This document shows positions 124 through 43,515 of a stretch of 43,515 nt of DNA, piece after piece. The notes beneath the pieces were generated by a model. That model was not told where the DNA came from and ran no database searches. It worked only from the letters and a program-made list of their open reading frames with translations. The DNA lies in the IMG/VR virus record IMGVR_UViG_3300043409_000951, positions 1 through 43,515 of that record. One strand, given 5' to 3'. Every line of letters begins with the position of its first letter. The stretch's first letter is position 1. The position numbers and the translations under genes were made by a program. Origin of the DNA: a virus.

Positions 124-735
124 TCAGTGTGTGTAACCAAAAACCCGCCGCCAAAATATCCCAGCCCCAACAATAGCCGCCACAATCAACGCCGGAACCA
201 CAGACGGCTCTGGCACATAGGTGCCGCGAGCGCTGCCGCCGTAACTGCTCGTTGCTGTGGTGCCGCTCGATGTCGTCAACGCACCACCAGTACCGCCAAC
301 CGGACCTGCCCAGATAATCGACTGAGTCAGAGACGTGTTTTCGACCGAGAGCCATGATCGCCCCGTAGGAAGATACACCGACAGACCGGACCACGCACTG
401 CGGATTACTCCGGAATAGATGAGCGTCTGCCGCTGCCCCGGTGTGCTGTCCAGCCACAAGGCGATATTGACGCCGCTTCCAGGCGACATGAACCCCTGAC
501 CAAGATTCAGCGACAACTGCTCCAGCCGTGCCGCTTGTGTCAGGTCAATTGCTTGGCTGCGAATCTGGCCCGGCTGAATCTGGTTGAACGCAGCAGACAG
601 CATACCGCCATCAACGCTGCAAGGTGCCTGTGTCCACAACAGCACGTCCGCCTGTGCTGTCGATGTCATCGCGACAATGGAAAGCCAAAACAGCCGCTGG
701 ACCAGCCAATCAACCAACGATGAAAAAAACCGCAT
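124..735 (-). CDS. Exported PEP-CTERM-anchored protein
   Basis: 203 aa. The N-terminus has a signal peptide: a hydrophobic segment at about residues 8-23, then a likely AQA|D cleavage near residue 29. The C-terminus is a textbook PEP-CTERM sorting signal: the triplet PEP at 175-177, a hydrophobic segment at about 179-195, then RR at 196-197 and a short tail. In bacteria such proteins are cut and anchored at the envelope by an exosortase. The middle is rich in Ser, Thr and Gly with no catalytic motif I recognise. The leader AAAGGGGACACACA precedes the ATG and resembles leaders of other small genes here. It follows the coiled-coil gene by 32 bases. The sorting signal implies that the host has exosortase. 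Possible roles are surface exclusion or envelope alteration (inference). Confidence 0.85.
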   Translation of the reverse strand: MRFFSSLVDWLVQRLFWLSIVAMTSTAQADVLLWTQAPCSVDGGMLSAAFNQIQPGQIRSQAIDLTQAARLEQLSLNLGQGFMSPGSGVNIALWLDSTPGQRQTLIYSGVIRSAWSGLSVYLPTGRSWLSVENTSLTQSIIWAGPVGGTGGALTTSSGTTATSSYGGSARGTYVPEPSVVPALIVAAIVGAGIFWRRVFGYTH

Positions 736-4356: not shown

Positions 4357-4836
4357 CTATGCGAACGGATTCGGCTTCGATGTCTGACCGCTGAACCCGT
4401 CAGGGCTTGCGGTTGCTGTCACCGTGACAGGAGCCACAACGCCAGTCTGTTTCGGCTTGTAGCCCTTCACCTCGTTCCGCAGTTTGCCCTGGTACTCTGA
4501 CACATCCACAACCGCCGTCAGTGTCCTGTTGTGCAGGTCATCGCTGTTGCGAGGCGTCAACACATTCACCGCCCGACAAATAGCCGACAGCGTGCCCTGT
4601 GCAATCTTCGTCGCCTTTTCGGACTTGTTCCACAGATTCAACCGATCATACAGCTTCTTGCCCTTGAACGGCCCCTCCACAACCTGAAGCACCATGTTCA
4701 GCAGATGCCCATCGCCCTTCGCTGTCGGCTTACTTTCTGACTCCACGATAATCACCTGATACTCGCCCTTCGGCACCGCCGATGCTGGCTCGTTCGGTTC
4801 AACTTTTGCCGCATCAAAACCCATCAAATCAGCCAT
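4357..4836 (-). CDS. DUF669 family protein (probable ssDNA-binding protein)
   Basis: 159 aa. Matches by eye the DUF669 family of phage recombination modules: an N-terminal MADLMGFDAAKVEP-type start, a YQVIIVESESKPT strand, the GPFKGKKLYDRLNLW motif and an SAICRAVNVL segment. Family members commonly sit beside Sak4/AAA ATPases and are thought to act as single-strand-binding or recombination accessory proteins. The ATG overlaps the stop of the ATPase gene by 8 nt (ATGGCTGA), with GGAGGTGACCA upstream. The C-terminus is a low-complexity linker ending in SKPNPFA. The strong terminator follows directly. Confidence 0.82.
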   Translation of the reverse strand: MADLMGFDAAKVEPNEPASAVPKGEYQVIIVESESKPTAKGDGHLLNMVLQVVEGPFKGKKLYDRLNLWNKSEKATKIAQGTLSAICRAVNVLTPRNSDDLHNRTLTAVVDVSEYQGKLRNEVKGYKPKQTGVVAPVTVTATASPDGFSGQTSKPNPFA

Positions 4837-5632
4837 TGGTCACCTCCGTTTTTTTGCTTGAACCATCAACCACAATGCCACCGATATTTTCCGCCGGAGC
4901 AGCTTGTGTGAAATACTGAGCATACGCAGCCCATGAAAAGTCGATCGTCTCAGGCATTGTCAGCCTGTTTTTCGCCAACGCTCCCGGCGTCTCTGTGCAG
5001 CGTATCAGACGTTCGCCAGATCCTCCGGCGATTATCCGCTCTTTACCGAAGCCTTCGTCCTGCTTTCGAGTGTGAACACGATAGGACGCAAACAGCACTT
5101 CATCGCACCATTCCTGAAGCGTTGCCGCTGCCGTCTCATGCAATGCAGGCTGATACCGGTCGTAAGAATCCGTCATCGGATCGGTGTACTTTTTGACGGC
5201 TGTGTGGGCCAGCAAAATCACACCCAGTTTCCGCTCAGCCTCAGTCCGCAGCCAGTCCAGCATTGTCAGGATTTTGTCCCAATATGCCATCGCTGATTTG
5301 TAGCCCGCACCATAGCCGATGTCCCCGATCGTCGCCTTCCCGGCTTCACGCGCCACCTCGGCATGAATCAAACCCTCAAGCCAGTCCACGCTGTCAATCG
5401 CTACCCACCTGAAATCGTGCTTTTGCGTGGCAAGAAATGTCAACGCTTCCATCACCTGCTCAAGCCGGATCAGGTGTTCCGTTTTGGCCACGTCGATGTC
5501 GTTCAATCCGTCCTCCAGATTGAGAAACAAAACGTCCGGAGCCTGTGCAGCCCACGACGATTTCCCGATGCCATGCGTGCCGTACAACAGCACCCTTCGC
5601 GGTACGATCTTCTTGCCTCGTGTAATCTTCAC
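4829..5632 (-). CDS. Sak4-like RecA-fold recombination ATPase
   Basis: 267 aa from a GTG that overlaps the RusA stop as GTGA, with AGAAGGGG upstream. Walker A GTHGIGKSS at residues 18-26, then FLNLEDGLNDID. A Walker B-like WVAIDSVDWLE near residue 80 and ILLAHTAVKK further on match the phage AAA_24/Sak4 group of single-strand annealing or strand-exchange ATPases. It stands directly upstream of the DUF669 protein, its usual partner. The predicted role is RecA-like recombination during replication. The longer upstream frame is rejected because it lies within the RusA gene. Confidence 0.85.
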   Translation of the reverse strand: MKITRGKKIVPRRVLLYGTHGIGKSSWAAQAPDVLFLNLEDGLNDIDVAKTEHLIRLEQVMEALTFLATQKHDFRWVAIDSVDWLEGLIHAEVAREAGKATIGDIGYGAGYKSAMAYWDKILTMLDWLRTEAERKLGVILLAHTAVKKYTDPMTDSYDRYQPALHETAAATLQEWCDEVLFASYRVHTRKQDEGFGKERIIAGGSGERLIRCTETPGALAKNRLTMPETIDFSWAAYAQYFTQAAPAENIGGIVVDGSSKKTEVTNG

Positions 5633-6054
5633 GGCGTGTAATCCCCTTCTGTTGTGTCGGTAACAAAAACCACCGTGGAGCCCTGCTGGCCCCACACTTT
5701 TCGCACAATCAATTCCCAAACGACTGCATCATCTGGCCAGCACTCACTCAAGCCGTCGAGTATCGCTTTTGCGATATTATCGCTGTCTGGCTTTTGCGTG
5801 TGTGGCTGGCCATCATGCTTCAGCTTTTTCGCTTTCGTCCAACTTTTGGGCATTTCGAAAACGCATCCAATTGTGACCCGGACCGGCCCTTCCAGCTTTG
5901 GCTTATTCGCTGACAATTTTGCGGTGATACTCCGGTAAACAACACCAGGAGACTTCTGCGGAACATAGTGCCTGACGCCCCATTTTGTTCGAACGCTACG
6001 TGCCCTCGGCATTCCCGCAGGCTGACCGAAGATTGTGATGTTCCACGTCGTCAT
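5629..6054 (-). CDS. rusA: RusA-like Holliday junction resolvase
   Basis: 141 aa. Endonuclease that cuts four-way junctions. The family signature is clear: QKPDSDNIAKAILDGL at about residues 87-102, with Asp90, Asp92 and Asp100 as candidate metal ligands, followed by the conserved DD at 108-109. The N-terminus GQPAGMPRARS is also typical. The ATG overlaps the previous stop as ATGA. It acts with the Sak4-like ATPase, DUF669 protein and helicase downstream, probably resolving recombination or packaging intermediates. Length is close to E. coli RusA (120 aa). Confidence 0.9.
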   Translation of the reverse strand: MTTWNITIFGQPAGMPRARSVRTKWGVRHYVPQKSPGVVYRSITAKLSANKPKLEGPVRVTIGCVFEMPKSWTKAKKLKHDGQPHTQKPDSDNIAKAILDGLSECWPDDAVVWELIVRKVWGQQGSTVVFVTDTTEGDYTP

Positions 6055-7811: not shown

Positions 7812-7970
7812 TTACCGTGCCATACCCCGCTCGACCGCTGTCAGAATCGCCGCCTGTCGTGTCGGCCCGATCTTGTCAAGCCGATCCATCAGCGGCTTCG
7901 GGATGCGGACCAGACAGGTCACTGCATCCGGCTTGTGTTTACGCGGTCTTCCGACCTTTTGGGTTGTCAT
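7812..7970 (-). CDS. Small DNA-binding protein (AT-hook / ribbon-helix-helix-like)
   Basis: 52 aa, MTTQKVGRPRKHKPD. It has an AT-hook-like GRPRK near the N-terminus, then a strand and two helices (VTCLVRIPKPLMDRLDKIG, RQAAILTAVERGMAR) in the order of a ribbon-helix-helix domain. The ATG at 7970 is chosen because AGGA lies about 8 bases upstream; an ATG four codons earlier has no such site. A regulator of the small-gene region, or of the operon it precedes, is plausible (inference). Confidence 0.65.
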   Translation of the reverse strand: MTTQKVGRPRKHKPDAVTCLVRIPKPLMDRLDKIGPTRQAAILTAVERGMAR

Positions 7971-8005: not shown

Positions 8006-8260
8006 TCAGTCTACGCACATTGCCACCTGCATTGCGCCCGCTGCCGCCAGTAGCATGACCTCGCGTTTGTTGTCGCGATCCAATAACACGCCATCAAATT
8101 CGGTACGTAACTCCCACACCCCATTTTCTTTGTAAATCTCCATCCTGTCCCCATCAGCCAGATCTGCCACGTACTTTTGACCTTCGACCCGGAATTCCGT
8201 TGTGTGCTCAATCAACCCGGTTGCGGTCAGGATTGTTGTCTTGATTTTTGTTGGTTGCAT
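8006..8260 (-). CDS. Small unknown protein
   Basis: 84 aa, MQPTKIKTTILTATG. Beta-rich N-terminal two thirds (EFRVEGQKYVADLADGDRMEIYK), a helical Ala-rich end and a final Cys. The start is fixed by the leader ACACAAGGGGAACACACA directly before the ATG, the same leader type as in the promoter units. No signal peptide. No family recognised. Confidence 0.65.
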   Translation of the reverse strand: MQPTKIKTTILTATGLIEHTTEFRVEGQKYVADLADGDRMEIYKENGVWELRTEFDGVLLDRDNKREVMLLAAAGAMQVAMCVD

Positions 8261-8310: not shown

Positions 8311-8571
8311 TCAATACACCCTGCGTTCATATGCCCGGATTGCCGAAGTGAGACCTCTGTGTTTTCCTGGCGTCGCCGTTGCCCACAGCTTCTGCCCGTT
8401 GTAACAAGTCGCAGAGCATTCCTTAACCGCCTGCTCGGCTGACTCAGTGTCGACGATTTCGACGATCTCACTGTAACCTGACTCAAAGTCGTTTTTCGGG
8501 TTTCGCTCCGCCCGCATTGCGGACTGGTTTGCTGCGTTGAAGCCGTTGCGAATGACGTAGTATGTGTTCAT
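8311..8571 (-). CDS. Small unknown protein
   Basis: 86 aa, MNTYYVIRNGFNAAN, preceded by ACACAGGACACACA. Contains EIVEIVDTESAEQAVKE and a short Cys pair region, and looks like a small alpha/beta fold. No family recognised. The longer frame is rejected because it runs back through two hairpins. It has no promoter of the A-D type directly upstream. The gap 8572-8714 holds only hairpins. Confidence 0.6.
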   Translation of the reverse strand: MNTYYVIRNGFNAANQSAMRAERNPKNDFESGYSEIVEIVDTESAEQAVKECSATCYNGQKLWATATPGKHRGLTSAIRAYERRVY

Positions 8572-8602: not shown

Positions 8603-8622
8603 CCCCCGCCGGCTGACGGGGG
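8603..8622 (-). terminator. GC hairpin upstream of the 86-aa gene
   Basis: Stem CCCCCG (8603-8608) with CGGGGG (8617-8622), 8-base loop, followed on the minus strand by TTCATTTTC. Weak as a terminator. Together with the hairpin at 8677 it fills the gap between two small genes. Confidence 0.35.
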
Positions 8623-8670
8623 GAAGTGTTGTCTATTTGCCCAGTCGAATCGCCAGCCACTTATCGCTAT

Positions 8671-8699
8671 CAAAACCCCCGCCAGCCAGTCTGGCGGGG
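8671..8699 (-). terminator. Intrinsic terminator of promoter unit B
   Basis: Perfect 9-bp stem CCCCGCCAG/CTGGCGGGG (8677-8685 with 8691-8699), 5-base loop, followed on the minus strand by GTTTTG. It lies 15 bases after the stop of the 50-aa gene and closes promoter unit B. Confidence 0.75.
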
Positions 8700-8714
8700 A
8701 TGTCGTTTTGTTTG

Positions 8715-8867
8715 TCAGCCCTGCGCCTTGGTTTCTGCCACCACCTGACGCCACTGTGCGATGCTCAGCCCCACACCACGGAACATTCTCCGCAGCATCT
8801 GTGCGTCCTTTTCGTCGTTACCGGTCAACCACGGCTGGATCATGTTTCGCACTGCGTCGGTCGTCAT
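8715..8867 (-). CDS. Small unknown protein in promoter unit B
   Basis: 50 aa, MTTDAVRNMIQPWL, helical, with a GVGLSIAQWRQVV segment that could be a small helix-turn-helix. The ATG at 8867 follows AGGGGGCGAACG, and the gene sits neatly between promoter copy B and the terminator at 8671. That context makes it a real gene despite its length. Function unknown. Confidence 0.65.
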   Translation of the reverse strand: MTTDAVRNMIQPWLTGNDEKDAQMLRRMFRGVGLSIAQWRQVVAETKAQG

Positions 8868-8900
8868 CGTTCGCCCCCTGTGTGTGTTGTGTTGTGTGTG

Positions 8901-8951
8901 TCAGACTCGTGTCTGATGAGTGAAGTATAATTTCATTATCGGAAATTGCAA
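8901..8951 (-). promoter_or_regulatory. Repeated promoter with 5' stem-loop, copy B
   Basis: Minus strand: -35 TTGCAA (8946-8951), 16-base spacer, -10 TATACT (8924-8929), 7 bases, then stem TCAGAC/GTCTGA (8901-8906, 8911-8916) with loop ACGA. The stem would be the 5' end of the mRNA. Drives the 50-aa gene. Confidence 0.85.
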
Positions 8952-8972
8952 GGGCTGTTCTGAATAATTTCT

Positions 8973-9002
8973 GAAAATAAAATCCCCCCGGTTTCCCGGG
9001 GG
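8973..9002 (-). terminator. Intrinsic terminator of promoter unit C
   Basis: 7-bp GC stem (8985-8991 with 8996-9002) followed on the minus strand by ATTTTATTTTC. It lies directly after the stop of the 74-aa gene and directly before promoter copy B. Confidence 0.75.
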
Positions 9003-9015
9003 AATTTGGTCTGCC

Positions 9016-9240
9016 TCAGACCGCCGCAACCTGCAATGTTTCCCAGACGTTATCGGACAGCTTTCGATATTGCCCTTCGCCCATTATGGTGTCATAGGCG
9101 GTTTCCATCGGCATTCCGGAACTTACCAGCGTGTTAATACACAGCCCGATGATTGCGTTCCGTGTAGCCTGGTCGTTCTTCATTTCAGCGCCGTTTTCAA
9201 ACAAGAATTTTGCGGCCCGGTTGAGAAGTTCTGTGTTCAT
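9016..9240 (-). CDS. Small unknown protein in promoter unit C
   Basis: 74 aa, MNTELLNRAAKFLFENG, helical and soluble, ending QVAAV. Start supported by the leader CACAAGGGGACA before the ATG. Flanked by promoter copy C and a terminator, so it is a single-gene transcription unit. No family recognised; the layout suggests an early accessory gene. Confidence 0.7.
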   Translation of the reverse strand: MNTELLNRAAKFLFENGAEMKNDQATRNAIIGLCINTLVSSGMPMETAYDTIMGEGQYRKLSDNVWETLQVAAV

Positions 9241-9268
9241 TGTCCTGTCCCCTTGTGTGTGTTGTGTG

Positions 9269-9319
9269 TCAGACTCGTGTCTGACAGGTGAATCATAATT
9301 TCATTATCGGAAATTGCAA
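9269..9319 (-). promoter_or_regulatory. Repeated promoter with 5' stem-loop, copy C
   Basis: -35 TTGCAA (9314-9319), 16-base spacer, -10 TATGAT (9292-9297), stem TCAGAC/GTCTGA (9269-9274, 9279-9284) with loop ACGA. Same geometry as copy B. Drives the 74-aa gene. Confidence 0.85.
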
Positions 9320-9342
9320 GGGCTGAATCTGAACAATTTCAG

Positions 9343-9374
9343 AAAATAAAATTCCCCCGGGTTTCCCGGGGGAA
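9343..9374 (-). terminator. Intrinsic terminator of promoter unit D
   Basis: Perfect 10-bp stem TTCCCCCGGG/CCCGGGGGAA (9352-9361 with 9365-9374), 3-base loop, followed on the minus strand by TTTTATTTT. It closes the 73-aa gene and lies just upstream of promoter copy C. Confidence 0.85.
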
Positions 9375-9386
9375 AGTGTCAGGTTG

Positions 9387-9608
9387 TTATTTCACGAAAT
9401 CCACAGCCTGCCCGTCTGATGCAATCACTCGCCACCCCTTGCGGGTTGCCTTCAGCTTACTGCTGTAACCCTTCTCGGTTGCCAGCCAGAGTCGAAAGTC
9501 TTCAGCGTGAAACTTTGTGCGTTCGCCCAGGTTGCTGTAAGTGTGAACCAAACTAACGGCGTTCAGGTCGGTTGCGACGATTGCGACTGGGTTGATTGTG
9601 TTGAGCAT
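9387..9608 (-). CDS. Small unknown protein in promoter unit D
   Basis: 73 aa, MLNTINPVAIVATDLNA, with a basic GYSSKLKATRKGWRVI segment and ending VDFVK. Leader ACACAAGGGGAATCACA before the ATG. Own promoter (copy D) and terminator. Function unknown. The basic central part could contact nucleic acid, but no motif is clear. Confidence 0.7.
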   Translation of the reverse strand: MLNTINPVAIVATDLNAVSLVHTYSNLGERTKFHAEDFRLWLATEKGYSSKLKATRKGWRVIASDGQAVDFVK

Positions 9609-9638
9609 TGTGATTCCCCTTGTGTGTTGTGTTGTGTG

Positions 9639-9689
9639 TCAGACTCGTGTCTGATGGTAGGAGTATAATTTCATTATCGGAAATTACAA
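9639..9689 (-). promoter_or_regulatory. Repeated promoter with 5' stem-loop, copy D
   Basis: -35 TTGTAA (9684-9689), 16-base spacer, -10 TATACT (9662-9667), stem TCAGAC/GTCTGA (9639-9644, 9649-9654) with loop ACGA. Upstream it shares a further stretch with copy A, including the 17-bp repeat at 9731. Confidence 0.85.
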
Positions 9690-9730: not shown

Positions 9731-9747
9731 TGAAAACCCAGTGTTTT
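9731..9747 (-). repeat. 17-bp repeat / weak hairpin at operon end, copy 2
   Basis: Identical to 2132-2148. It overlaps the last base of the stop of the glycosyltransferase/methyltransferase gene and ends the tail-glycosylation operon before promoter unit D. Confidence 0.6.
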
Positions 9748-10964
9748 CACTCGCCTTCCGCCTTCGTTCTCCACGCAATTAAATCATCATACCGGCCTGC
9801 AACGCCGCGAAAGTCCTCAATGGTCCAGCCATCAGCGCGGAACCACTCGACAGCTCGTTCGTCCTGAAGATCTTCGACAACGTAAACACCGCCCGGACGC
9901 AGGGACCACCACAACGCCCGCACACCTGCAACCTGATCGGGTAGAGTGTGGCTGCCGTCGTCAATAATCAGATCCACCGGGGATTGCTGTCGCAGCCTGT
10001 CCCGCAACGGCCCGAAGTCTGGCGAACTCATTCGCACGCAATCCAGCCCCGCAGGCGGATTCTGATCGGCCCCAATAATTCGCCCGCCCGGCGCAACATC
10101 CTGCCAGGCTCGAAGACTTGCCCCGTTCAAGACGCCAATCTCAACAACGCTCTGCGGTTGCACGTCTCGCCAAATCCGATCATAGAACGCCCCGTATGTG
10201 TGGAGTGTAACCTTATCGCTCCCGTGCCGCCTCAGGGCTTCACTGACCGGCCCTGATTGCTTCTGCAATTTGTGTGCGACATAATCCCCGGACGCCTGCC
10301 CCGATGCCGCAATAGCCCGGTCGATTGCCCGCAGGTTGATTGGGATTCTGTTCGCGTCGATCCCGCCACGGCGAACAGCCCGATATCTTCGCAGCGTTGA
10401 GCTCGCCGCGTCGCCGTGCCGCACCCAGATCCAGCCGACGTCATTCGAGACAACCCGGAAAGGCCACTGCTTATGGTAGAGCCAGTGCCCCATATCATGC
10501 GGGGACCGATTGCCGTCAGTGACGATTGACACAAACTGATTGCCCGGATGCGTCAGCAAATGGGCGGTGCTGCGCCACCAAGTGTAACCGGTCGGCCAGA
10601 TCAATGCGATTTCGCCGGATGCAGGAGCTGCCCCATAAACCCGCTCGCAAAAGTCGGCTGACAGCACGTCATCGTCGTCAATTCGCGAAACCACCTTACG
10701 ACCCTGCGGCAGTGCGTAGTCCGCGCCGTACACTTGCCACGTGTCGTGCCAGACCGGGACAACTTCGCAGCCTGTTGCCTGGTACATGCTTAGCCGCGTT
10801 TGTGCGTGAGGATCTTTTGGCGACTGTGCGAGATGGATGATCGGCTTCCGCGTCTGATATCGCAGTGCGGGGAAACTTGTGTGCTCTGTGATTGCCAATC
10901 GCCGTTGGCTCAAATCCGGATCGGTGAACACGCTCTGAATCACAATGCACTGCGGTACCGTCAT
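9747..10964 (-). CDS. Glycosyltransferase-like / SAM-methyltransferase two-domain protein
   Basis: 405 aa. The N-terminal half resembles putative rhamnosyl/glycosyltransferases: VVSRIDDDDVLSADF around residues 91-105 supplies the Asp-rich metal/nucleotide-sugar motif. The C-terminal domain from about residue 240 is a class I methyltransferase of the CmcI/macrocin type: VEIGVLNGASL (274-284) as motif I, GADQNP with Asp300, and LIIDDGSHTL. The ATG overlaps the upstream glycosyltransferase stop as ATGA. The two coupled genes follow the distal tail genes, so a virion protein or the host surface may be glycosylated and the sugar methylated (inference). Confidence 0.75.
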   Translation of the reverse strand: MTVPQCIVIQSVFTDPDLSQRRLAITEHTSFPALRYQTRKPIIHLAQSPKDPHAQTRLSMYQATGCEVVPVWHDTWQVYGADYALPQGRKVVSRIDDDDVLSADFCERVYGAAPASGEIALIWPTGYTWWRSTAHLLTHPGNQFVSIVTDGNRSPHDMGHWLYHKQWPFRVVSNDVGWIWVRHGDAASSTLRRYRAVRRGGIDANRIPINLRAIDRAIAASGQASGDYVAHKLQKQSGPVSEALRRHGSDKVTLHTYGAFYDRIWRDVQPQSVVEIGVLNGASLRAWQDVAPGGRIIGADQNPPAGLDCVRMSSPDFGPLRDRLRQQSPVDLIIDDGSHTLPDQVAGVRALWWSLRPGGVYVVEDLQDERAVEWFRADGWTIEDFRGVAGRYDDLIAWRTKAEGE

Positions 10965-40860: not shown

Positions 40861-43383
40861 TTATTCAAAAGATACTGCATCATCAGCCATCAAGTCAAAT
40901 AAAGTCGGTGCCGTCAACTCACGTTCCGCACGCTCGCAGAATGACACACCGAATTTCCAATAGTCCGGATTCAGTTCAATGCCCCATCCTTTACGCTTCA
41001 TCTTAATCGCAACATACGGCGTTGAGTGAACGCCGCCGAACGGATCGAGAATCACGTCGCCGGGATTGCTGTATCGCTCGATCAGTCTTTCAATCACGTC
41101 AAGTTGCAATGGGCAGACGTGGTTCTCTGTCGTCTTCCGGCTGAGTTCCGTGTTCAGCGTTTTGATTCGAACGATGTCAGTCCAGATGTCTGGATTAGTG
41201 CTTACCGGAGCGAACAGCATCATCGACGCTGGAAGGTGTCCATGCTGTTCAACAGCCTCGGTGAACGCAACGTGGTCATGGTAGTTGTAATTGTTTTCCT
41301 TCGCATATCTCCTCCACCAGTGATAGATATCCGACGTGCCCATGCCAGCCAGCATCTTCGGCTGAACCAACTCATTGCCGTCACTACGCCAGATCCCGCT
41401 CGCGTGAATCTGCCACCGGCTTCGGCTGTACTCCGCTTTGTCTTTGGTCACAGGATCAGGACCGGAAGCGGTCTGATTCGGTGACATGCTCGGTTCCCAT
41501 TTGCGAAACAGCAGAACAAACTCGGTCGACCCACATCCCATCTTCGTGCTGTCCTTGCCGTTCTCGGTGTGGCCCAGCCGATAGGTCTGCGCGTTCTCCC
41601 GGACCACATCGGTGTCAATCACAATGCGGCCCATGTAGACAAAACCACCCTTGCGAAATGCCGCGACAGTCTTATCTGAAAACTCATTCACGCTGTACAT
41701 CGCATGACCTGTCATCGTGCCGTACTGGATGCGATCCTTTGTGTGAATACAGGCGACTCGCCCCGGCTTCAAAACTCGGTACAACTGCGGAACCAGAAAA
41801 TCAAACTGCTTAAAGAATCCATCATCGCCCTGATTGTGCCCAAAGTCGTTGTAGCTCGGTGAATATTCGTAATGATCGGAAAACGGAATACTGGTAACAA
41901 TTTCATCAACGCAATCATCAGGCCATGATGTCAGTTCTGAAACACAATCATTATTGATTGCCCTGTAAGTCTGACCGCTGACCTCGTGTCGCGGCACTCC
42001 CATACCTCGCTCGAATTTCATTTTCAACGCCTCGCCTGAAAGTCCATGTTCCCGAATAATTGAACGCATGTGCGTGGCCAGCTCGTCATGCCGTCGCCAT
42101 TTTTGCTCCATAATCATCTTCGTGTCATACTGTGTATCAGCGTACACAATATGGATTTCCACCGTCTTCCGTTGCATGAACCTATGGATGCGGTGAACTG
42201 CCTGGATGAAATCGTTGAATTTGTCCGTTGGCCCAATAAAAATAGCCTTATTGCAATGCCTCTGGAAATTACAACCGCTGCCCAACAACTGCGGTTTGCT
42301 GCTCAGAATCTGCAATCGGCCATCGGCGAAATCTCCGACGATTTCTTCACGCACTTCCAGTTCCTGCGTTCCGAACACAGCCCGTGAATCGGGAAAAGCT
42401 TTTTGGATTTCATGCCGCTCAGATTCCAGATAGTGCCAGATAATCCAATGATCATCTGGCGACTGCTCCACAATCTGAACAGCTTTCGCGATGCGTGTGT
42501 CAGCGGTCTTTCGTCGCTGCTTACTGACGTGCTTAATCCCGCCGCCCGGCTTCTCGAACAGCAAAGGTTGACCAAAGCTGTCGACAAACGCTCCCGGCTT
42601 TCCCTGATCGCCTTCGACCTCGTGCCAGTGGACCTGCATTTCCGGCATATCATAGCCAGCATCATCGTACCCCAGATCGCTCGGAGAATTAACGAAGACA
42701 GCCCACGATGCCACCCACAACCAAAACCGCTGTTCTTCGTGCGGGTACAGTTGCAGGTTCCCGGCTTTTTTACTGTCCCGCTGGAAGAATCGCGTCATCG
42801 CCTGCCCTCGATCCATTACGCCAAGAAAGTCGGCATAGTTAATCAGTTCGATGAACTCATTCGGCGAAGGTGTGGCCGTCGCAACAAAGCGATACGGCAC
42901 TTTGCGAAACAGCATAGCAAACTGCTGTGTTGTTTTCGTGCCGTAAGATCGAAGGCAGCTCGCTTCGTCCAACGTCGCCCCAGCGAACTGTTTCGGGTCG
43001 ATGTCGCCATCTCTTACACGCTCGTAATTTGTTATGATAAATGGTGTGTCAGTCGCTGCAACCTCCGCATCTGTCCGGCAGTATTTGACTACCATCCCCA
43101 TGCGTGGCCCGTCGTTACGGGTGAATTCCTGTCGCACTCCCAGCGGTGCGATGATTAGCACCTTCCCGCCAGTGTGCTCGTGAATCCACTTGCAAATCTG
43201 CAACTGCTGCACTGTCTTGCCCAAGCCAAACGACTCAAACAACGCCGCTCGGCCTTTCCGGATTGCCCATTGCACGCAGTCGACCTGATGCGGCAAAAAC
43301 CAGTCAGGACAATCTGACTCCGGCACAAATCCATCCATTACCACAGGCGGCATTTTAGACCGCAAGAAATCCTGATAATCCAC
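40861..43383 (-). CDS. SF2 helicase - DNA methyltransferase fusion
   Basis: 840 aa from GTG at 43383, placed just after the G-run (see poly-G site). Residues 1-430: SNF2-like helicase with FGLGKT (52-57), TLDEAS (137-142), TATP (168-171) and QAVHRIHRF (394-402). Residues 470-840: beta-class N4/N6 amino-methyltransferase with motif IV as TSIPF (497-501; TSPPY is usual) and SAM site LDPFGGVHST (779-788). Similar fusions in phages, such as P1 DarB, have antirestriction roles. It may methylate phage DNA while tracking along it. Confidence 0.85.
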   Translation of the reverse strand: MDYQDFLRSKMPPVVMDGFVPESDCPDWFLPHQVDCVQWAIRKGRAALFESFGLGKTVQQLQICKWIHEHTGGKVLIIAPLGVRQEFTRNDGPRMGMVVKYCRTDAEVAATDTPFIITNYERVRDGDIDPKQFAGATLDEASCLRSYGTKTTQQFAMLFRKVPYRFVATATPSPNEFIELINYADFLGVMDRGQAMTRFFQRDSKKAGNLQLYPHEEQRFWLWVASWAVFVNSPSDLGYDDAGYDMPEMQVHWHEVEGDQGKPGAFVDSFGQPLLFEKPGGGIKHVSKQRRKTADTRIAKAVQIVEQSPDDHWIIWHYLESERHEIQKAFPDSRAVFGTQELEVREEIVGDFADGRLQILSSKPQLLGSGCNFQRHCNKAIFIGPTDKFNDFIQAVHRIHRFMQRKTVEIHIVYADTQYDTKMIMEQKWRRHDELATHMRSIIREHGLSGEALKMKFERGMGVPRHEVSGQTYRAINNDCVSELTSWPDDCVDEIVTSIPFSDHYEYSPSYNDFGHNQGDDGFFKQFDFLVPQLYRVLKPGRVACIHTKDRIQYGTMTGHAMYSVNEFSDKTVAAFRKGGFVYMGRIVIDTDVVRENAQTYRLGHTENGKDSTKMGCGSTEFVLLFRKWEPSMSPNQTASGPDPVTKDKAEYSRSRWQIHASGIWRSDGNELVQPKMLAGMGTSDIYHWWRRYAKENNYNYHDHVAFTEAVEQHGHLPASMMLFAPVSTNPDIWTDIVRIKTLNTELSRKTTENHVCPLQLDVIERLIERYSNPGDVILDPFGGVHSTPYVAIKMKRKGWGIELNPDYWKFGVSFCERAERELTAPTLFDLMADDAVSFE

Positions 43384-43515
43384 AGCGCCCCCCCCCCCTC
43401 TCAGTGTGTGTAACCAAAAACCCGCCGCCAAAATATCCCAGCCCCAACAATAGCCGCCACAATCAACGCCGGAACCACAGACGGCTCTGGCACATAGGTG
43501 CCGCGAGCGCTGCCG
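43277..43515. repeat. Terminal direct repeat, right copy (circular-contig overlap)
   Basis: Second copy of the terminal repeat, one base longer than the left copy because of an 11-C tract. Removing one copy gives a circle of about 43,276-43,277 bases. Confidence 0.95.
43401..43515 (-). CDS. PEP-CTERM protein, 3' fragment (right copy)
   Basis: Duplicate of the last 37 or so codons of the gene at 124-735, including the PEP triplet, the hydrophobic segment and the stop. It is cut by the right edge of the window. Not a separate gene. Confidence 0.85.
   Translation of the reverse strand, partial: GSARGTYVPEPSVVPALIVAAIVGAGIFWRRVFGYTH

Follow-up and report, generated by a model that had tools for sequence, protein, structure and literature searches.

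Does the row of small genes at positions 8671–9689 of this virus genome consist of exchangeable one-gene cassettes, as the first-pass annotation had proposed, and by what means are single genes gained and lost? The window, i.e. the whole stretch of DNA analysed here, is a 43,515-nt virus record, and every gene identified in it is on the minus strand. Encoded products include a GpA-type terminase, a lambda-type portal and a Mu gpT-like head protein, along with a tape measure, a helicase, a primase and a Sak4-like annealing protein. A 239-nt repeat is present at both ends (1–239 and 43277–43515, with one indel between the copies); the assembly is therefore probably circular and near-complete. 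Locus I, the three-unit array, has the structural genes on one side and the replication genes on the other. No Rfam matches and no tRNAs were found, and a nucleotide search of isolate phages with 8–11 kb of the window gave no match. Among relatives of the helicase encoded in genomes, the best (40–43% identity) are in Planctomycetota, Phycisphaerales and Pseudomonadales metagenome-assembled genomes and so point to no single host.

Analysis of the region confirms three head-to-tail minus-strand units, termed B, C and D. Each contains, in order, a sigma-70-like promoter (TTGyAA-16-TATACT/TATGAT), a hairpin at the predicted 5' end of the mRNA, a G-poor CA leader, a Shine–Dalgarno (SD) sequence, an ORF and an intrinsic terminator. 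The combined promoter and hairpin pattern has exactly three matches, in 8902–9685, and none in 100 shuffles. The full repeat (terminator, promoter, hairpin and leader) can be aligned over approximately 120 nt at 80–90% identity. The TTGyAA/TTTCCGA promoter core occurs at only four coding-strand sites in the window, corresponding to units B, C and D and to a fourth, diverged unit at 1555–2090 (locus II). The range 8671–9689 begins near the unit D terminator and ends at the unit B promoter, and to that extent describes the array, but it leaves out the locus II unit and two promoterless ORFs downstream. The features are as follows, all on the minus strand.

9732–9748, minus: hairpin GAAAACactgGGTTTTC ending the upstream gene, seen in the sequence; a similar element precedes the locus II unit
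9662–9689, minus: unit B promoter, TTGTAA-16-TATACT, with spacer dyad AATTTC-N7-GAAATT
9639–9654, minus: unit B 5'-terminal hairpin, TCAGAC-ACGA-GTCTGA
9387–9608, minus: unit B ORF, 73 codons; orthologues at other array positions in relatives
9352–9374, minus: unit B intrinsic terminator (scan)
9292–9319, minus: unit C promoter, TTGCAA-16-TATGAT
9269–9284, minus: unit C 5'-terminal hairpin
9016–9240, minus: unit C ORF, 74 codons; product predicted all-helical
8980–9007, minus: unit C intrinsic terminator (scan)
8924–8951, minus: unit D promoter, TTGCAA-16-TATACT
8901–8916, minus: unit D 5'-terminal hairpin
8715–8867, minus: unit D ORF, 50 codons; inside a 166-nt stretch that a distant phage shares without mismatch
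8677–8699, minus: unit D terminator-like hairpin, of a type seen at the ends of second-clade arrays
8633–8662, minus: remnant of a cassette gene (MRTISLG..), 3' end only; relative G003 has the complete gene
8603–8622, minus: terminator after the remnant (scan)
8311–8571, minus: small ORF (86 aa) without a promoter of its own, downstream of the array
8006–8260, minus: small ORF (84 aa), likewise promoterless; retained in relatives
7812–7970, minus: conserved small basic protein GRPRKH.., possibly a ribbon-helix-helix regulator; closes the locus in both clades
4829–5719, minus: Sak4-like single-strand annealing protein, candidate recombinase
2063–2090, minus: locus II promoter (diverged copy)
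2037–2055, minus: locus II hairpin, TCAGAC-AACACAA-GTCTGA
1555–1989, minus: locus II cassette ORF (144 aa); other ORFs in its place in relatives

Relatives, all of them metagenome contigs, were gathered by promoter scans and a helicase scan. They form two clades, that of the window, in which the helicase protein is 93–96% identical, and a second in which identity is mostly 55–61%. In total, 38 non-redundant cassettes with ORFs of 29 families were compared. Between units carrying different ORF families the identity of the regulatory parts is 0.68–0.78 across sets (0.71 within the window), although second-clade units were mostly located by the promoter pattern, so that the conservation of their promoters partly reflects the selection of hits. 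The ORFs of different families have an identity of 0.44–0.50 (0.48–0.50 in the comparison of all 38 cassettes), equal to that of random DNA (0.50). The proposal that control parts are conserved while the ORFs differ thus holds over the larger set.

In these relatives locus I again follows a glycosyltransferase/methyltransferase-like or structural gene and precedes the small GRPRKH gene, and the ORFs in between differ in kind and number. There are four units in G003, in L205 and in G002 (the last of the G002 units being cut by the contig end), and one in G006. Locus II also holds different ORFs in different relatives. Near-identical copies of promoter and stem-loop number four in the window and five in G003, and some relatives carry a single unit. 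Array content and order therefore vary at the same locus, which is the gain and loss that the annotation had suggested looking for; a fixed order of ORFs in all relatives, named beforehand as the refuting result, is not what they show.

Movement of single ORFs can be followed directly. ORF B is first in the window, second in G002 and third in G003; its DNA is 95–96% identical across the three phages, and its regulatory parts are 67–81% identical and of three promoter/hairpin types, one of them without a hairpin. ORF D lies inside the 166-nt run identical to G009, whereas elsewhere the aligned stretches of at least 100 nt between G009 and the window are 65.6–72.7% identical, and the helicase DNA 63%. 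The similarity starts at the SD and stops in the terminator. Contigs L193 and L196 have a 343-nt identical run in common, which starts shortly ahead of the SD and finishes at the stop codon; the flanks upstream of it are approximately 75% identical. In addition, the first ORF of G002 has a relative in the second clade at 72% identity, the remnant behind ORF D is also present in G002, and in G005 a locus-I-type unit precedes the gene that stands at locus II. Both loci of G003 carry a promoter variant, CCGATACAGA, that is private to this genome, a distribution suggesting exchange within it. The description of the units as exchangeable is thus well supported, by differences between arrays, ORF moves with near-exact borders, a remnant and a move between loci, and the exchange borders fall in shared SD and terminator sequences, as expected if recombination occurs in flanking repeats.

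Taken together, locus I is quite probably an early-gene array of self-contained cassettes, in which homologous recombination within the leader/SD and the terminator adds and removes one-gene units. Each unit would act as an expression cassette in which a promoter and 5'-terminal hairpin are followed by an unstructured, G-poor leader with a strong SD, a small ORF and a terminator. Self-containment is relative, since no copy of the cassette promoter is found at the downstream genes or the replication operon and the array terminators may leak. The promoters probably act early, through the host RNA polymerase, as they sit between structural and replication genes. Cassettes would enter, be lost or be reshuffled through recombination between these near-identical sequences, and because the borders lie in two elements common to most units, the SD and the terminator, homologous recombination over such short stretches would be the simplest agent. 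ORFs would be replaced singly, with the control parts of the recipient remaining. The phage's own Sak4 protein, encoded between the two loci, is a plausible agent of this recombination; single-strand annealing proteins such as Sak4 are known to work on diverged DNA (PMC5499656).

An alternative is site-specific exchange of the integron kind, in which the hairpin or another element is the recombination site for a dedicated enzyme. The near-exact borders of exchanged ORFs and the repetition of hairpins beside each ORF would fit such a mechanism. However, no tyrosine integrase (14 controls detected), resolvase or HNH domain was found in four genomes in searches that detected their controls, and second-clade units exchange ORFs without any hairpin. 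The hairpin was rejected as a recombination site on the latter ground, and integron-like exchange as a whole is improbable. Duplication and divergence in place, with one promoter–gene–terminator unit copied and its ORFs diverged past recognition, agrees with regulatory parts that are paralogous repeats and with the single unit in some relatives. Under that explanation it is difficult to see why ORFs of different families should have reached the likeness of random DNA while their flanks keep 70–80% identity, or why identical ORFs should occur in distant phages and behind different control parts. For ORF D, identical in a distant phage, duplication is already refuted; for B and C, homologues in other phages count against it, and it is very improbable overall. 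Finally, similar cassettes of co-occurring phages could have been misjoined during assembly: repeats invite such errors, and 127-nt end overlaps in two contigs suggest k-mer assembly. Against this, the identical runs of 166 and 343 nt span differently numbered metagenome records, the homology at SD junctions is only some 10–15 nt, and identical arrays are each carried by several records (G001/G003/G004; L198/L199), which makes an artefact extremely improbable.

A further reading is a finer version of the early-gene array with homologous exchange, rather than a competitor to it. The array would be an early anti-defence regulon, with a shared operator dyad bound by the GRPRKH protein, in the manner of Aca proteins with anti-CRISPR genes. 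A promoter spacer is normally free to vary. Here it is nearly invariant and symmetrical. Its dyad reads AATTTC-N7-GAAATT or, depending on the clade, ACTTTC-N7-GAAAGT, the two arms having changed to match, and both clades have a GRPRKH gene at the locus. The dyad may thus be an operator, for which the GRPRKH protein is a candidate binder. Archaeal viruses share the layout, with proven anti-defence genes (PMC11065993). On the other hand, only the left half-site is nearly invariant, the right being variable, and the matched arm change amounts to one event. The predicted GRPRKH model had no match in the PDB, including none to ribbon-helix-helix proteins, so that assignment to this class remains a guess, and no array ORF matches a known anti-defence gene in the libraries searched. 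The regulon is a possible but doubtful refinement.

The 5' hairpins of units B, C and D fold at −7.2 to −11.0 kcal/mol, and their first paired base coincides with the predicted +1/+2; throughout the window's clade, the predicted +1 of each unit is a purine that lies 7 nt past the −10 box. Such a hairpin at +1/+2 is found in 15 of the 17 units of this clade and is absent in the other two, and nothing comparable is seen at the 5' end in second-clade units with this type of promoter. The stem-loop, put forward as a standard cassette part, is therefore one in units B, C and D but not in all units; on this comparison it is specific to the window's clade and is not required for exchange. When the variants within the clade were compared by eye, there was no compensatory change, only loop changes and one shifted stem, so the variants give no independent proof of the structure. 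Pairing of the 5' end is known to make mRNA decay more slowly: Bacillus subtilis RppH requires at least two unpaired 5' nucleotides, and the ompA and papA mRNAs are stabilized by 5' stem-loops (PMC3997798 and works cited there). Most simply, then, the cassette hairpin may protect the mRNA 5' end.

Hairpins at the 5' end also accompany another promoter family, of TTGACA-16-TATTCT type (L191 1604–1680, minus strand; L048 3897–3963; L036 1128–1190); their loop is TGAGGG or TAAGGG and their stem varies on both sides (TCGCGG/CCGCGA, TCGCAC/GTGCGA). In L085 (1388–1807) and L086 (2909–3314), copies of a terminator-like hairpin, CCCCGCTGCACAGTGCGGCGGGG, separate short ORFs, and no promoter is visible in the intervals.

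As regards the cassette ORFs themselves, ORF B has a dN of 0.012–0.018 and a dS of 0.11–0.18 between relatives, and judged by these substitution rates it is a selected gene, under purifying selection. ORF C has a homologue in second-clade contig L191, whose first cassette ORF matches it at 43% identity, and ORF D has homologues at 100% and 66–69%. These homologues and the dN/dS of ORF B make all three look like real genes. A 66–69% homologue of ORF D (L200 1087–1245) is situated outside any such array, in an unrelated context shortly upstream of an apparent terminase gene. No family match was obtained for ORFs B, C and D. No known anti-defence or anti-CRISPR gene was matched in Pfam, PHROGs or PADLOC, libraries that are incomplete for anti-defence genes. 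Nor was there a match for B, C or D in isolate phages by tblastn, for the C and D families in 392 Planctomycetota genomes (a search without a positive control), or, at significance, for the predicted model of ORF C in the PDB and viral structures. The anti-defence or host-takeover role already suggested for the products is plausible because the layout matches that of archaeal-virus early anti-defence regulons. Most likely, the variable small proteins would be conditionally useful against particular hosts or defences.

Integron arrays are exchangeable one-gene units in a row, as is the array described here; in contrast to integrons, each unit here has its own promoter, and there is no integrase found and no common recombination site. 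The lambdoid-phage moron is a single gene with its own promoter and terminator, located between genes that are adjacent in relatives. The present units likewise have their own promoter and terminator and are inserted between genes adjacent in relatives. Unlike morons, several stand in tandem with one common control sequence, in phages where no integrase was found, and ORFs swap beneath standing control parts.

The promoter early stem-loop (PeSL) cassettes of T4-type phages (Arbiol 2010; Comeau 2014; both via PMC4503421 and PMC3950731) and the similar motif of haloarchaeal virus HGTV-1 also resemble the array in having a repeated promoter and stem-loop beside variable ORFs, tied to gene shuffling among relatives. 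Neighbouring ORFs are shuffled between relatives here too, but the terminase, portal and head protein are not those of a T4-type phage. The window also differs from the PeSL cassettes in having a hairpin placed at the 5' end of the mRNA, a separate terminator and, at the nucleotide level, visible exchange of ORFs alone. In SIRV2 and similar archaeal viruses, early anti-defence regulons consist of small, unlike single genes with one strong regulatory sequence (PMC11065993). The window likewise has small, unlike single genes with one regulatory sequence; the small conserved GRPRKH protein nearby would be a candidate regulator. In contrast, the promoter is of bacterial type, the phage is likely bacterial, and terminators and nucleotide-exact exchange are visible; the anti-defence role proven there is a candidate role here.

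One-gene exchange between distant phages is thus caught at nucleotide resolution, and its border positions bear on phage mosaicism at gene ends. The cassette promoter sequence can also serve as bait: any small ORF behind it becomes a host-takeover or anti-defence candidate, in a phage group without a close isolate in the collection searched. It is tempting, if rather unlikely, to see here a 'cassette bank' of bacterial phages, in which the SD and terminator would be docking ends, the phage's own annealing protein would swap single ORFs between phages 66–73% identical, and the array, under a shared operator-controlled early promoter, would be a catalogue of counter-defence genes.

Two other genes of the window may be mentioned. 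At 40861–43431 (minus strand), near locus II across the circle junction, there is an 856-aa fusion of an SNF2-type helicase and an N6/N4 DNA methyltransferase. At 124–735 (minus strand), a 203-aa protein, also present in relative G006, has a signal-like start and a tail of the form VPEPS..hydrophobic..RR. No PEP-CTERM family match was obtained for this protein in Pfam or NCBIfam. The tail resembles a PEP-CTERM sorting signal, which is unusual for a phage and may hint at the host.
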